The notes under the pieces: generated by a model
Seen by the model: only the letters and a program-made list of their open reading frames with translations
Told to the model about the DNA's origin: nothing
Databases searched by the model: none
NCBI GenBank assembly: GCA_016786485.1
Contig: JAEUWD010000002.1
Span: 1 to 64,000, forward strand
Length of the DNA stretch: 64,000 nucleotides
Source: Bacteriovoracaceae bacterium
GTDB lineage: Bacteria; Bdellovibrionota; Bacteriovoracia; Bacteriovoracales; Bacteriovoracaceae
Reading direction: 5' to 3'
Shown: positions 973-9,513 of the stretch, piece after piece
How the letters are laid out: every line of letters begins with the position of its first letter
Position numbering within the stretch: the stretch's first letter is position 1
Program-made: the position numbers and the translations under genes

Positions 973-1950
973 CTAATAAATATTTTCCATCTTATTTAAA
1001 ATCACATTCAATTTCGACCTCTGCTGCTCTAAAGAAAAGCTCACAGCTCTCGAATTTACGCGTCCTATATCTTCACGCAATTCTTTGGACAAAATTAAAT
1101 CTTTAAGGGCCGAGGAAAATGAATCTGTTGTAAATGGGGAAAGTATGAATCTTCGTCCTTCGTCTACTAGAATCTCACTCGCTCCTACGGTAGAAGTCGT
1201 TATCACTGGAAGACCACATCCCATTGCTTCAATAACAACTCTACCAAACTCTTCTATATAAGCAGGAAGAACAAAAATATCTATTGCATTATAATAATTT
1301 TGAATGTCTTCCATCTCACCATCAAATGTTAAGTAGTGATAATCAGTAGATACTCTATCCTTACCAACAACACGAAAATCGGCCATTTCTCTTATATGAT
1401 CAGGCAGACTTTTTATTGCACCTATGAAGCGATCCAGGCCTCGTTTTTTAAAATTCCCCGAGGTTACAAGAGCGACAACGACCTTATTTGGTAAGTTAAA
1501 TTTTCTGCGAAACTCTGCCCTTTCTTCATCTGACTTCCTATAAAAGACATTTGAGTCTAGCATTGGATAAATCACTTCAATTTTGTCACTGCTAATACCA
1601 AAGCGTTTTATCAAGTCTTCTTTCATCATCCGAGAGTTCGCGATTACAAATTGAAATTTTCCACTATTCAGAATATTTCCATGAATAATCGCCATTTCAT
1701 TGTCTTTACTAAGCTTTTGCTTATAAATTAATTCATTCGCTAAAAAAACACTGTTATGCAAAGTTAATATATCTTGTTCGAGTATATCTCCATGACCGAT
1801 TATCACATCGGGACGAATCATCCATTTAAGTATACTCACTTGAAAATTAAACCAGTTTCTTCTTCTCAGACCTGTTCTTTTAACCCAAGGAAGCAGCCTA
1901 TAAGGTGTTACTCCTGTAGTGTTCACAATAAAACTTCCGCTTTCTTTCAC
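973..1950 (-). pseudogene. Glycosyltransferase family 4, 5'-truncated by a transposon
   Basis: The reading frame encodes the C-terminal two thirds of a GT-B glycosyltransferase of the group 1/GT4 type. VIYPMLDSNVF, the GNFKKRGLDRFI segment and the donor-binding EEFGRVVIEAMGCGLPVI (E-x7-E motif) are clear. The usual N-terminal Rossmann half (start, glycine-rich loop, first about 60-100 residues) is absent. The border of the transposon end at 1914/1915 falls inside the frame, so the first 12 apparent codons (GTG start at 1950) are transposon sequence. The frame begins inside the stop codon of the last transposase gene, so some translation by coupling is possible. Enzyme activity is unlikely. 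It would have used an NDP-sugar in surface polysaccharide synthesis. Confidence 0.8.
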
Positions 1951-1969
1951 ACATTTCCCCTTACACCTC
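1915..1969 (+). repeat. Left terminal inverted repeat of the transposon
   Basis: It starts TGTAGTGTT at 1915 and carries the inner block CTTACACCTC at 1960-1969. It overlaps the last codons of DDE protein 2. The matching right end has the same two blocks in the same order, 7 bp further apart. Confidence 0.75.
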
Positions 1970-2999
1970 GGTTAATGTTAATCAACTCAAGTTCAGACAA
2001 CATCGTAAATACTGCGTTTCGTTTCATCATCACTGCACAACGCTTTTCATGACGTTCATCGATGAGATTCAGCTCTTTCATACACATCAAATAAAACGTT
2101 TCACGATCAATTTTATCATGGAAGCTTTTTAGCTCAACCTCTAATTCTTTTGCCGTTTTGTACCCTTTACTCATTCTAGGCCTGCATGCGTTTATAGTTT
2201 CAGCTGCTTTAGTTATGCGTTCAAACCCTTCATTAATACTTTCAAGGACAACCATTTTACCAAGCAGAGAAGCCTTTTTTAGCTCATACATCGCCCTTTC
2301 AGCGGCAGCATTATGCTGTGGAACCCTGGGCACTGACTTCAAATGTACGACTTGTTCATCCCTTAAGAATTCTTTTAATTCTTTGCCGATATAGGCCGAT
2401 CCATTATCAGTCATCCACACCAATGGTAGCGCTCTTGCTTTCTTCATATCCTGGAGTTGATTCAGAACATCTTTCTCTGTTGCTGTTACTCCAACCTGGA
2501 TGCCTACTGTTTTCAGTGTAGCTCTATCTTTTATAACCTGGGCCTCGATAGCTTTTCCTTTTAATCTCCCAATGTGCGTTCCATCCTGTGACCAAATAAC
2601 ATCTTTACGCAAAACCTGTATTGAAGTTCTGTTGTGCTTTAAAAATTCTGACTTTATTTTTCTTTCGCGAGCTTTGATTCGAGCCACGAACTCATTTACT
2701 AATCTTCGCTGAACTTTTCCTTTCAGAACTGAGTAAACTGCAGGGCCCCCAGCATTTCCCTGTCGCTTCAATTCCCTAGACACAAGTATTAAAGCATTTC
2801 TTCTTTGTTTAGTTGTATAAGTAGGCCTCCCAATTTTAGGAGACCTACCTTCAAGTGCTTTTCTTTTCCAGTTACGTAACGTTCGAGAACTAACTCCGAG
2901 ACTACTCGCTAGCTTTTTTTGAGGAAGACCTCTTTTTTCGAGCAACATCTTGCCGATCTTTTCCGTTAACTTTTTTGGATAGCGCTTCTCGTTCTGCAT
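1947..2999 (-). CDS. DDE transposase/integrase 2 of the transposon
   Basis: This 350-residue protein has an N-terminal helix-turn-helix (about residues 25-50, LASSLGVSSRTLRNWK) and a retroviral-type integrase core. The catalytic triad is visible as SQDGTH (D139), MTDNGSAY (D198) and HNAAAERAMYELK (E234), with the canonical D-35-E spacing. I chose the ATG at 2999 because GAAGGAAAG precedes it; a TTG five codons upstream is also open. It overlaps the preceding gene by 98 bp and ends in the left transposon end. It is clearly different from the first integrase of the same unit, so it may be a second catalytic subunit rather than a duplicate. Confidence 0.85.
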   Translation of the reverse strand: MQNEKRYPKKLTEKIGKMLLEKRGLPQKKLASSLGVSSRTLRNWKRKALEGRSPKIGRPTYTTKQRRNALILVSRELKRQGNAGGPAVYSVLKGKVQRRLVNEFVARIKARERKIKSEFLKHNRTSIQVLRKDVIWSQDGTHIGRLKGKAIEAQVIKDRATLKTVGIQVGVTATEKDVLNQLQDMKKARALPLVWMTDNGSAYIGKELKEFLRDEQVVHLKSVPRVPQHNAAAERAMYELKKASLLGKMVVLESINEGFERITKAAETINACRPRMSKGYKTAKELEVELKSFHDKIDRETFYLMCMKELNLIDERHEKRCAVMMKRNAVFTMLSELELININRGVRGNV

Positions 3000-3450
3000 T
3001 TCTTTCCTTCTCAAGTTCCGCTTCGTACGTAACCTGTTTACATCCTGGCATCTCTCTTAGAATGCTAATCAGTCGGTCCTGCATCGCGATCGTTTTCTCC
3101 AACTCGGCAATCTTCTTCAAAAGATATTTCGGATCTTCGTCCCTGTTCATAATCACTCCCTTCATTTTCACTTTCGGCTGAACTAGAAGGCCCGCTAACA
3201 TCCCCGAGACTGCTAGCTGAGACAGCTGCCAAACTCGAATGGGTGGAATGTTCAATCTCTTCGCTGCTTCTTCCTTCGAGATTTTCCCCACCCAATATTC
3301 CATGATCACAACACCAGTCTGCTGGGCCTTGTTCTTCTCTTCCTGAGTCGAGTGTAGCCATAGAGCTTTCACTGGTAGTGCTGGCCTCAGAGGAAGCGAA
3401 AGTCCTTTCTTTCGACCGCGTTTCTTCTTTTCGATTTGTAGTTCGTTCAT
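2902..3450 (-). CDS. Small HTH/coiled-coil transposition accessory protein
   Basis: This 182-residue basic protein lies between the two integrase genes and overlaps both. It has a lysine/arginine-rich start (KKKRGRKKG, AT-hook-like), a helix-turn-helix-like segment at about residues 50-85 (ISKEEAAKRLNIPPIRVWQL), a predicted coiled coil (about 108-140, LLKKIAELEKTIAMQDRLIS) and a lysine-rich tail. The ATG at 3450 has a good AGGAGA site 7 nt upstream, so it is translated on its own. It is probably a DNA-binding helper, by analogy with small partner proteins of other multi-gene insertion sequences. No family is recognised. Confidence 0.7.
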   Translation of the reverse strand: MNELQIEKKKRGRKKGLSLPLRPALPVKALWLHSTQEEKNKAQQTGVVIMEYWVGKISKEEAAKRLNIPPIRVWQLSQLAVSGMLAGLLVQPKVKMKGVIMNRDEDPKYLLKKIAELEKTIAMQDRLISILREMPGCKQVTYEAELEKERNAEREALSKKVNGKDRQDVARKKRSSSKKASE

Positions 3451-4777
3451 AATTATCTCCTAAAATTGTTTTTTTATGGCCAAAATTCTCATAGCTAATT
3501 TCATCAATCCCATTTGGTGTTTGAAGAACAAGCTTTCCAGATTCCCCATGAAGACTAAGTGGCTGATCACCGATCTGACCAATAATGAACACTGGCGTTC
3601 TTGGTGTTTCATCAATGGCCAATCTGATTGCATTTTTCTCCATCATTTCCTCAAGCACCTTTCTTACTTCATCTTCAACTCCAAAGAATCGATCTGCAGG
3701 GACCATCCCGTCTAAACCCTGATGAGGTCTGAAGTGATTATAGTGATTCACAAAGTGCTCGAATCTATCTTGGGCATCCTTTAGATCCTGAGGCTTAGCT
3801 CTTGTCCAAAACTCTTTAGAAACAGTTTCCCAAAAGCGTTCGCATTTTCCTAATGTTTGAGGATGATGGCTTCTAGAGACGACGTGCTTTATACCTTCTT
3901 TATCGAGGAGTTTTTGAAAATCACCTTTTCCTCGCCAAGTAAAGTATTGTCGGCCTTGATCAGTTAAAACTTCTTCAGGTTTTCCAAATTTTTGAACACC
4001 ATTTAGAAGACAATCAACAACAAATTGACCAGTTTGTTTGAGCTGTAAATTCCAGGCGACGATGTATCGGCTGTGATCATCCATAAAGACAGTTAAATAG
4101 ACTCGTTGACTATGACGGGCCAAAACGTAGCTCGTAATATCGGATTGCCAAAGCTGCATTGGATTCGCTCTCTCAAAATGCCTTATTTGATCAGCACCAC
4201 GACGACGTTTCTTTTCCACTTTCACGAGTGGAATCTCTTGTTCATCAAGAGTCTTTTTAATTGTTCCTGCCGAGACTTTTAAACCTTTAAATCGTGCCAA
4301 GAAGTCGCGGACTTTCCTGAGACCAAATTGAGGATTCTCCATCTTCGTTTTTGTGATTTCTGCTTTTAAAAAGTCTTTGATACCTGAAGGACCTCTTTTC
4401 TTAGGAGCATCTTTAAAATCCATTCGCTCTAAGCCTTGTGGACCTTTTTCTTTGTATATCCTTAACCAAATTCGAATGCTGTTCTCTGAGGCCAATCCCC
4501 AAACTTTGGCGAATTGGCTTAAAGGCATTCCACTCTTAAAAAATGCTTCTACTGTTTGCCTTCTAAGATCCGGATTATGAGGACCGCCTTTTCGTTTAGC
4601 ATGTTGTGAATCTGTGTTGGCATGATTCACCCAGTTTGCGAACGTGCTGTTTCCAATTCCTTTGCTCTTGCTGAACGCATAGATTGATTGACCTGAAGCT
4701 CTATACTCATCAATGAGCTGAGCTTTTAAGGCATCGTCGTAGAATGTACGAGCACGTCTAGATTTTTCTTCAGACAC
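3065..4777 (-). CDS. DDE transposase/integrase 1 of the transposon (IS481-like core)
   Basis: The GTG at 4777 has GGAGG five bases upstream; an in-frame TTG four codons earlier has no such site. Two helix-turn-helix domains fill residues 10-125, and an rve integrase core follows with QSDIT (D213), LTDQGRQ (D273) and GKCERFWE (E313), ending HFRPHQGL. This is IS481/IS3-like. A small beta-rich domain follows to about residue 435. The last 130 residues are read out of frame across the next gene, are serine/glutamate-rich and look non-native, so the working protein may end near 3470, where a run of seven A occurs (minus strand). It is first in the three-gene operon. Confidence 0.85.
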   Translation of the reverse strand: MSEEKSRRARTFYDDALKAQLIDEYRASGQSIYAFSKSKGIGNSTFANWVNHANTDSQHAKRKGGPHNPDLRRQTVEAFFKSGMPLSQFAKVWGLASENSIRIWLRIYKEKGPQGLERMDFKDAPKKRGPSGIKDFLKAEITKTKMENPQFGLRKVRDFLARFKGLKVSAGTIKKTLDEQEIPLVKVEKKRRRGADQIRHFERANPMQLWQSDITSYVLARHSQRVYLTVFMDDHSRYIVAWNLQLKQTGQFVVDCLLNGVQKFGKPEEVLTDQGRQYFTWRGKGDFQKLLDKEGIKHVVSRSHHPQTLGKCERFWETVSKEFWTRAKPQDLKDAQDRFEHFVNHYNHFRPHQGLDGMVPADRFFGVEDEVRKVLEEMMEKNAIRLAIDETPRTPVFIIGQIGDQPLSLHGESGKLVLQTPNGIDEISYENFGHKKTILGDNYERTTNRKEETRSKERTFASSEASTTSESSMATLDSGREEQGPADWCCDHGILGGENLEGRSSEEIEHSTHSSLAAVSASSLGDVSGPSSSAESENEGSDYEQGRRSEISFEEDCRVGENDRDAGPTD

Positions 4778-4816
4778 GGAACCCTCCAATTACCGACACA
4801 AACGATCGGTGAAAAA

Positions 4817-4878
4817 GAGGTGTAAGAAATATATGTGATTAGATTAAAATAGAGGAAAGTTTTTTGTTAAACACTACA
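4817..4878 (-). repeat. Right terminal inverted repeat of the transposon
   Basis: Read inward on the minus strand it begins TGTAGTGTTTAACAAAAAAC and ends at the CTTACACCTC block (4826-4817), matching the left end. Its outermost bases supply the stop codon of the neighbouring His-rich gene. Confidence 0.75.
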
Positions 4879-5086
4879 CGTGACAACCTTCATGCTTATT
4901 ATTTGAAGAATGTTCGTGGGCAGATGTTTCATTATCTGATTTCTTATTTTTTTCATTTGAAACATGATGGTCATGATCACACTCAGTTTCAACAACAGGG
5001 ACATCAAAATGACTCACGTCCGCCACTACCGTAGTGGCTACACCAAACAAGAACAAAAATAATAGCGGTACGTATTTCCAGTTCAT
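4874..5086 (-). pseudogene. Histidine-rich exported peptide, 3' end cut by the transposon
   Basis: The ATG at 5086 starts a 70-residue product with a clear signal peptide (MNWKYVPLLFLFLFGVATTV) and a mature part rich in His, Asp and Glu (ECDHDHHV, AHEHSS, HEGCHV), as in periplasmic metal-binding proteins. An upstream TTG (5125) is possible but would spoil the signal peptide. The stop codon TAG lies inside the terminal repeat of the transposon, so the original C-terminus is lost. The metal-binding role is inferred from composition and from nearby metal genes. Confidence 0.55.
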
Positions 5087-5227
5087 TTTGAGAGTTAGAG
5101 TATAGTATCTAGTAAAAGAAATCAAGTATTCACTAAAGTCATTGAAATTAATACCTTATATCGCTACGATCAATAGGATCAATTAAGCCGGTCATCAAAA
5201 AAATTTTTGAATCTTCAACTGTTTACC

Positions 5228-7875: not shown

Positions 7876-9513
7876 TTAATTTCCTAAGAACCTTTTCTGC
7901 AATTCATCAACCAGAACTTTTTTATTTTCTGAATAATCAATTGGAACTATGACTAACTGAACTCCACCTTCTAAAAATGCTTTTTCCATTGTTGTCTTTA
8001 ATAAAGAAATGTCTTCAACTCTATGTCCTTTTGCCCCGTAAGCTTCGGCATATTTCACAAAGTCTGGGTTCTTAAATGTCATTCCAAAATCAGGAAAATC
8101 ATCTACGGACTGTTTCCAACGGATCATTCCATATGCTCCGTCATCCAGAATAAGAACAACTAGATTTAATTTCAAACGGACCGCAGTTTCCAACTCTTGG
8201 CTATTCATCATAAAGCCTCCATCCCCACAAACTGCCATAACGCGTGTATTTGGGTAAAGCATTGAAGCCATCATGGCCGAAGGGAGTCCAGCGCCCATTG
8301 TTGCAAGAGCATTATCTAAAAGAAGTGTGTTGGCCTTTTTAGTTCTATAATTTCTAGCAAACCAAATTTTATACATACCATTATCAAGAGCAACAATTCC
8401 ATCGGCTGGCATAACTTGTCTTACATCATGAACAATTCGCTGCGGAGTGAAGCGATCTTCTGTCGCTCTATCAGCAAGGTGATCAAGAATTTTTTCTCTT
8501 AATGGAAGAAGTGCTTCTGCATTGGGAACCATCCCTTCAAGTCTATCACCTAAGAGCTTTAAAGAAGGCCCTACATTTCCAACAACTTCTACCTGAGGAA
8601 AATAAACTTGTTCAACAGTAGCTGGTTGATAACCGATGTGAACGACAATAGGACCTTTGTCATTCATTTTAAATGGTGGCTTTTCTATTGTATCATGTCC
8701 AATTGCAATAATGACGTCAGCTTGTTCTATTGCCTCATGTACATAGTCTTTCTCTGAAAGAGCAGCAGTACCTATATATAAATTTGTATCACCAGATACA
8801 GTACCTTTTCCCATTTGTGTCGTAAAATATGGGATTTTCATTCTCGTAACGAAGTCTTTAAGTTCGTGGCTACATCTCGGTCTTGAAGTTGCCGCCCCAA
8901 GCATAATAAGTGGTCTTTTTGCTTTTTTGATGACTTCAGCTGCACTATCAATTGATTTCAAGCTGGCAACAGGTAACTCAATTGAATGTGGCTGAATAAG
9001 CTCAACATTTTTAACTTCTTCAGCTGCTATATCTTCTGGAAGTTCCAAATGCACAGGACCTGGTCTCTCTTCTTGTGCCACTCTAAAAGCTTCCCTCACA
9101 ATCGTTGGTATCATGGCAGCAGAAACAATCTGACGAGAAAGTTTTGTTAACGGCTTCATAGTTGCTACTGTGTCTACCATCTGAAATCTTGCCTGAGCAG
9201 ATGATAAGATTCCTTTCTGTCCAGTAAGCATAATCAGAGGCATCGCTCCTAATAGAGAATAGGCTGCTCCAGTGGATAAATTAAGTGCCCCAGGCCCTAA
9301 AGTCGTTATACAAACCCCTGGCTTCCCAGTTAATCTCCCGTAAGTGGCTGCCATAAACGCGGCTGCCTGCTCATGTCGAGTTAGAACTAGCTCGATCTTA
9401 GAATTACGAATTGATTCAACAACATCTAAATTTTCTTCACCTGGAATTCCAAATATCTTATCAACCCCTTCATTTTCTAATGCTTTAATCAATAGATCTG
9501 AACCCTTAATCAT
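7876..9513 (-). CDS. Acetolactate-synthase-like ThDP enzyme
   Basis: The ATG at 9513 has GGAGGT five bases upstream and gives a 545-residue protein; an in-frame upstream start would extend it by 12 residues without a ribosome site. It has the three-domain ThDP fold: FGIPGEEN, the catalytic glutamate in LTRHEQAAAF, GVCITTLGPGALN, a central domain (about 190-340), and the ThDP-binding GDGGFMMNSQELETA...LNLVVLILDD segment near residue 430. The family condenses two 2-oxoacids, usually pyruvate, into acetolactate. No small regulatory subunit gene follows, so a catabolic/AlsS-like or specialised role with the adjacent aldehyde dehydrogenase is more likely than branched-chain amino acid synthesis. 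It is divergent from dmeR. Confidence 0.85.
   Translation of the reverse strand: MIKGSDLLIKALENEGVDKIFGIPGEENLDVVESIRNSKIELVLTRHEQAAAFMAATYGRLTGKPGVCITTLGPGALNLSTGAAYSLLGAMPLIMLTGQKGILSSAQARFQMVDTVATMKPLTKLSRQIVSAAMIPTIVREAFRVAQEERPGPVHLELPEDIAAEEVKNVELIQPHSIELPVASLKSIDSAAEVIKKAKRPLIMLGAATSRPRCSHELKDFVTRMKIPYFTTQMGKGTVSGDTNLYIGTAALSEKDYVHEAIEQADVIIAIGHDTIEKPPFKMNDKGPIVVHIGYQPATVEQVYFPQVEVVGNVGPSLKLLGDRLEGMVPNAEALLPLREKILDHLADRATEDRFTPQRIVHDVRQVMPADGIVALDNGMYKIWFARNYRTKKANTLLLDNALATMGAGLPSAMMASMLYPNTRVMAVCGDGGFMMNSQELETAVRLKLNLVVLILDDGAYGMIRWKQSVDDFPDFGMTFKNPDFVKYAEAYGAKGHRVEDISLLKTTMEKAFLEGGVQLVIVPIDYSENKKVLVDELQKRFLGN

Follow-up and report, generated by a model that had tools for sequence, protein, structure and literature searches.

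To our knowledge, nearly all insertion sequences (IS) rely on one catalytic protein that acts on two ends. More than one catalytic protein per element is found in Tn7 and other heteromeric transposases, and TnsA of Tn7 has a restriction-endonuclease fold and is not an RNase-H protein. IS66 elements carry three overlapping genes (tnpA, tnpB and tnpC) with small helper proteins and a single DDE protein, and IS3 elements, which move by copy-out/paste-in, use their ends asymmetrically. Here we describe an element of 2,964 bp at positions 1915..4878 of contig JAEUWD010000002.1 from a Bacteriovoracaceae bacterium (assembly GCA_016786485.1); the first 64,000 nucleotides (nt) of this contig form the window that was analysed. 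Between the ends of the element lie three overlapping minus-strand genes, here called A, B and C, and nothing else of size. As far as sequence can tell, two diverged DDE proteins (A and C) and a helper (B) always occur together here, in overlapping code, instead of the usual single enzyme. Such a compact element with two co-conserved DDE proteins invites the direct question of how ends and strands are divided between two active sites. Searches of an open-access library, within the terms used, brought up no description of an IS that carries two different DDE proteins.

According to PMC10045372, DDE enzymes join with a stagger and repair of the gap leaves a target duplication, which measures 2-15 bp, mostly 6 bp, in IS481 elements and 3-5 bp in IS3 elements. 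As described in PMC6350997, orfA and orfB of IS3 are fused by frameshift into one catalytic OrfAB. The new element resembles IS481 in its TGT...ACA ends and in its A protein, which scores 201 bits against the NCBIfam IS481 transposase model NF033577 in an alignment spanning nearly the whole model. Unlike IS481, it remains below the cut-off of that model (224 bits), contains two extra conserved genes, a second DDE protein and an acidic overprinted tail, and shows no target duplication. Its overlapping genes and the helix-turn-helix (HTH) region ahead of the DDE protein are reminiscent of IS3; here, in contrast, two catalytic-type proteins come from separate genes, a 3-5 bp duplication is seen at 0 of 10 loci, and the second-best model for A, IS3 NF033516, is matched at 155.5 bits, under its cut-off of 160. 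Since both scores lie under the cut-offs, three genes are present and duplications are absent, the element is not a member of IS481 or IS3 as these are defined. It is classified among the DDE (IS481/IS3-like) transposons, and A is clearly a descendant of the IS481/IS3 side of the DDE tree.

The likeness to other systems is more partial. An arrangement of three overlapping genes is shared with IS66, and the N-terminus of A matches IS66 TnpA accessory models at 31 bits, whereas the NCBIfam scan reported no match to IS66 TnpC for A or C. Unlike Tn7, the element has neither a TnsA endonuclease nor a TnsC/TnsD/TnsE-like gene between its ends in the window, and it measures 3 kb without cargo. Absent duplications and mismatched flanks are what would be expected of replicative, deletion-forming elements of the IS6/IS26 type (compare PMC7986276), in a comparison that covers the flanks of the new element family. 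In contrast to the new element, those of the IS26 type are short and encode a single transposase, and no sequence relation between the two was found.

Three overlapping genes that stay together

Gene A (3065..4789, minus strand) encodes a protein of 574 residues with N-terminal HTH regions, an rve/DDE core (Pfam rve, E=2.8e-21) and an acidic tail overprinted on gene B. Its triad is D217/D277/E317, with a spacing of 60/40. Gene C (1947..3014, minus strand) specifies 355 residues from a TTG start, or 350 from an ATG at 2999, and combines an HTH with a DD35E RNase-H domain (Pfam rve, E=4.8e-9) whose triad is D144/D203/E239, spaced 59/36. Its NCBIfam scores are 75 bits for IS3, the best by bits, and 70 bits for IS481. 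The AlphaFold2 model of C has a mean predicted local distance difference test (pLDDT) score of 88.6 and shows a helical N-terminal part of the HTH type together with an RNase-H core; for this model, the best structural matches among those listed are retroviral integrases, IstA of IS21 and TnsB (VIA Z 15-17). A and C are only distantly related to each other, with one A-C pair at blastp E<1e-3 and a best E of 5e-10 for the C profile against A.

Gene B (2902..3450, minus strand) encodes a basic protein of 182 residues with a helical, HTH-like region and a coiled coil, and belongs to no known family, as nothing credible was found in Pfam and the family searches gave none. Its model has a moderate mean pLDDT of 71. 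Four helices at residues 27-88 form a part that is modelled with confidence, a coiled-coil helix spans 107-133, and a structure search with the model returned no significant fold match (best E 0.7). The three genes overlap in three frames, and B in the window has its own AGGAG and ATG. A programmed frameshift fusing A to B is unsupported in the window, where a TAG lies in the B frame shortly ahead of the ATG and the AGGAG sits 6 nt upstream; some other loci have no good ribosome site ahead of B, and such a fusion is possible there.

A survey of 368 genomes of the phylum Bdellovibrionota gives this arrangement its weight. The B and C profiles match an identical set of 16 loci in 14 of the genomes, and reading the frames at these loci reveals A at every one, in identical gene order, with A offset by 2 and C by 1 relative to the B frame throughout. 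All three triad residues are present in A at 16/16 loci and in C at 16/16, C of L038 being read in two frames. Such a repeated finding of the same genes, order, frames, triads and type of end, in 14 of the 368 genomes and at 16 loci in all, is more than chance would produce. In a set of 192 relatives, A matches above 480 bits and C matches at E<1e-37 define the same nine loci, the window included, and the next A match drops to 169 bits. The 368 genomes yielded no separate close relative for either C or B, and the single-gene protein that comes nearest to A has 411 residues (L110) and 32-40% identity. These results bear out the preliminary description of the window, which had proposed a single 2.96-kb unit with matching ends that encodes two non-identical DDE proteins with complete triads and a small HTH/coiled-coil protein, all overlapping, and had asked whether the genes always move together with these ends. 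The ends lie exactly at the positions given there, rve matches both proteins, the triad spacings agree, and the three genes lie together between such ends at every locus; its residue numbers are lower by 4 in A and 5 in C because a later start codon was used. The case it had named as refuting, with the two integrase genes mostly apart and bounded by their own ends, was sought among close relatives and not found.

The ratios of observed to expected nonsynonymous changes between L032 and L038, without multiple-hit correction, are 0.39 for the A core, 0.51 for B and 0.54 for C, which indicates that A core, B and C are under purifying selection. The A and C trees have 6 of 12 splits in common, and permutations reach at most 4. 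Beyond the phylum, a contig scan with the C alignment returned eight loci, all from Bdellovibrionota, and a scan with C alone gave no match. Viral contigs yielded no A, B or C, phages no C and plasmids no B, with distant DDE proteins as the only plasmid matches for A and C. The contig-scan patterns are too strict to catch L095-L100, so a restriction of the family to this phylum is unproven. One further genome, G103, holds a decayed, internally deleted remnant (L111, 2498-3292) in which a piece of A is directly followed by a piece of C.

The overlap between A and B (3065..3450, minus strand), in which the A tail and B are read in two different frames, consists mostly of the C-terminal tail of A itself, laid in another frame over B, a detail absent from the preliminary description. 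The A frame is open across 299-650 nt of B in 16/16 loci, whereas shuffles of synonymous codons in B leave it open in only 0-7% of cases, depending on the locus. The tail is acidic at all 16 loci, with a net charge of -8 to -46, while the A core, B and C are all basic, and at every locus it is more negative than the mean of shuffles that preserve B (z -1.7 to -5.0). As L036 and L037 are identical copies, the 16 dual-coding loci do not amount to 16 independent events. For a bacterial mobile element, the overprint is also a long and unusually clear case of dual coding.

Unequal ends and absent target duplications

The ends of the element, TGTAGTGTT and AACACTACA, sit exactly at 1915 and 4878 as inverted TGT...ACA termini with 22-nt arms that are 82% complementary. 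The left end, in front of gene A (4854..4878, minus strand), reads TGTAGTGTTTAACAAAAAACTTTCC, and the right end, behind gene C (1915..1938, minus strand), reads GGAAGTTTTATTGTGAACACTACA or, inward on the opposite strand, TGTAGTGTTCACAATAAAACTTCC; each is present in a single copy in the genome of the window when up to 2 mismatches are allowed. Like anatomy is found at the 15 other loci, with an element size of 2,730-3,044 bp wherever a contig holds both ends; L095 begins 4 nt inside its own left end, L098 ends inside C and has no right end, and the L086 contig holds nothing but the element and a single additional base. Across the family, the left-end consensus is TGT..NGTGTAAC(A/G)AAA...TTTCC and the right-end consensus TGT.GTGNNCAC...TTCC. 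When the first 26 nt are compared, the score is 17.2 among left ends, 16.4 among right ends and 13.8 between the left and right ends of one element, so that left ends are closer to the left ends of other elements than to their own right end.

The right ends of all loci also contain a short GTGNNCAC dyad with conserved outer bases and a variable middle. This dyad might be bound by a dimeric HTH protein, for instance B. A promoter and terminator scan gave nothing above shuffles. At L096, the first 20 nt of the left end occur once more, in the same orientation, 640 bp past the right end (position 8670, element orientation).

Both flanks are on the contig at 10 of the 16 loci (L032, L037, L086, L095, L098 and L100, each with a flank missing, were dropped). 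The preliminary description had suggested comparing copies for target duplications; none emerged, as no direct repeat of 2-39 nt adjoins the exact boundary in any of the 10. The same rule, applied to an IS3-type control in G183, recovered a short duplication in 7/7 copies (3 nt in six and 4 nt in one). When the boundaries were allowed to shift, one 4-nt match appeared in 3/10 loci, a rate similar, in this small sample, to that of cross-paired controls (7/90). The two flanks do not look like parts of one interrupted gene in the loci that can be judged, several others having flank frames that are too short.

Since DDE joins normally leave a duplication and none is present at 10 loci, either a later loss through replicative intramolecular deletions or an unusual join has to be considered. 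We tentatively favour deletion-forming replicative events as the explanation of the absent duplications. If the element does delete neighbouring DNA when it moves, this would matter for genome change in these predatory-type bacteria.

Two putative active sites and how they may be shared

The available data are compatible with a model, held here with slightly better than even confidence, in which a Bdellovibrionota transposon family of about 3 kb uses a heteromeric transposase, in which B brings A and C together, and leaves the neighbouring DNA deleted or rearranged. Three features, namely the conserved pair of triads, the difference between the ends and the presence of the helper B, suggest a single mixed transpososome in which A would act on one end and C on the other, and from conservation we infer that both proteins catalyse. 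In this model, A (IS481/IS3-like) and C (shorter, DD35E, with an HTH in front) would each supply an active site, most likely one protein per consistently different end, an asymmetry comparable to that between the ends of copy-out/paste-in elements. B, as a basic HTH/coiled-coil protein, would bind DNA and bridge A and C. The acidic tail of A, encoded by the same DNA as B, might hold B or C or mask their basic surfaces, and would thereby tie the dosage of the proteins together. Transposition or its aftermath would often remove adjoining DNA, through replicative intramolecular events of the IS6/IS26 type or Mu-like ones, and this removal would explain the absent target duplications. A bolder form of the proposal, which we regard as doubtful if tenable, envisages an obligate two-enzyme DDE transposase with one RNase-H protein per end (or per strand), joined by an HTH/coiled-coil bridge and the overprinted acidic tail; the element would lose target DNA when it inserts and would not generate the customary duplication.

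Several observations weigh against the mixed transpososome. The conservation of two triads is no proof that both proteins have a catalytic role, the consistent left/right difference across the family is the sole hint that A and C may form a heteromer or divide the ends, two options that the preliminary description had put forward, and unequal ends are also common in elements with one transposase. C is disrupted at 2 of the 16 loci, by a frameshift in L038 and by one internal TAG in L039. The amino acid sequence of the A tail is unconserved, with observed/expected replacement changes of 1.09-1.16 in 5/5 pairs, and because these changes are not reduced, openness and charge seem to be kept rather than the exact sequence. 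Agreement between the A, B and C trees is partial, at 5-6 of 12 splits, and some of the conflict, over the position of L034, is supported; almost all loci come from metagenome assemblies. Finally, further copies of the ends, located at contig edges in G084, G097 and G242, allow 15 within-genome pairings of left and right flanks, and 0/15 share 2 nt or more, a result that lends replicative inversion no positive support.

It is unlikely, though worth serious thought, that A is the sole transposase, with B and C as regulators or target selectors and the C triad kept for DNA binding or metal-dependent folding. The two broken copies of C would fit such a role, as would the better IS481 and IS3 matches of A (201 bits for IS481 and 155 for IS3, compared with 70 and 75 for C) and its stronger constraint (0.39 versus 0.54). 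The three acidic residues of C, however, are retained at 16/16 loci while its other columns drift to 29-44% identity, and a purely structural role would rarely preserve all three. A division of strands rather than ends, as in Tn7, appears quite unlikely: one DDE protein would cut and join the transferred 3' strands and the other would cut the 5' strands in a cut-and-paste reaction. Two different proteins with two triads, the heteromeric precedent of TnsA and TnsB and the alignment of C with TnsB chains, too, speak in its favour, but C has an RNase-H fold like A where TnsA is of the restriction-endonuclease type, no gene for a TnsC-type AAA+ ATPase lies between the ends, and cut-and-paste should still leave the target duplication that is not seen.

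Artefacts of assembly, in which the absent duplications and mismatched flanks would be metagenome joins made at a repeat, are improbable. Contigs start or stop within or at the element in L032, L037, L086, L095, L100, L102-L105, L107 and L109, so copies do confuse assemblers. Yet all 10 two-flank loci lack duplications, some of them on long contigs (G247:C10 with 105 kb, G208:C10 with 131 kb and that of the window with at least 64 kb), the cross-copy flanks within one genome remain unpaired, and each end is single-copy in the genome of the window. The distant relationship of A and C might also suggest that one insertion sequence has landed in or next to another, a scenario to which we give next to no credence and which was rejected: order, frames and outer ends are the same at all 16 loci, there are no inner ends, the genome survey gave no separate close relative for C or B, and the nearest relative of A with a single gene shows 32-40% identity.

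Flanking genes and further observations

In the window, the right flank (973..1914, minus strand) is a GT4-like glycosyltransferase gene without its N-terminal part, and the left flank (4879..5125, minus strand) is an open reading frame for a small, His-rich protein of secreted type that runs into the element. At L035, a cation-efflux gene on the left is cut after profile position 66 and a tyrosine recombinase lies on the right, and at L034 PKD domains lie on the left, whereas the frame of 763 residues on the right is unmatched. The missing C-terminal part of the cut cation-efflux gene was not found elsewhere in G054, a genome that is 81% complete, and a search for the lost half of a DUF3800-like flank in G084 gave one sub-threshold match (E=0.28).

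Viewed by eye across the 16 loci, most left-hand genes are read into the element in the orientation of the element itself and those on the right leave it likewise, and several flank genes encode large secreted repeat or RHS-like proteins. In G242 (L095), three or more related small genes of secreted type follow one another downstream of C, to the right of the element. The IS3-type control consists of seven near-identical copies on contig C1 of G183 (L113-L119), with ends TGATCTGTACCCC... and 3-4 bp duplications, and the two flanks of at least six of the seven copies are complementary to each other, as if the copies were sited in the loops of intrinsic terminators.

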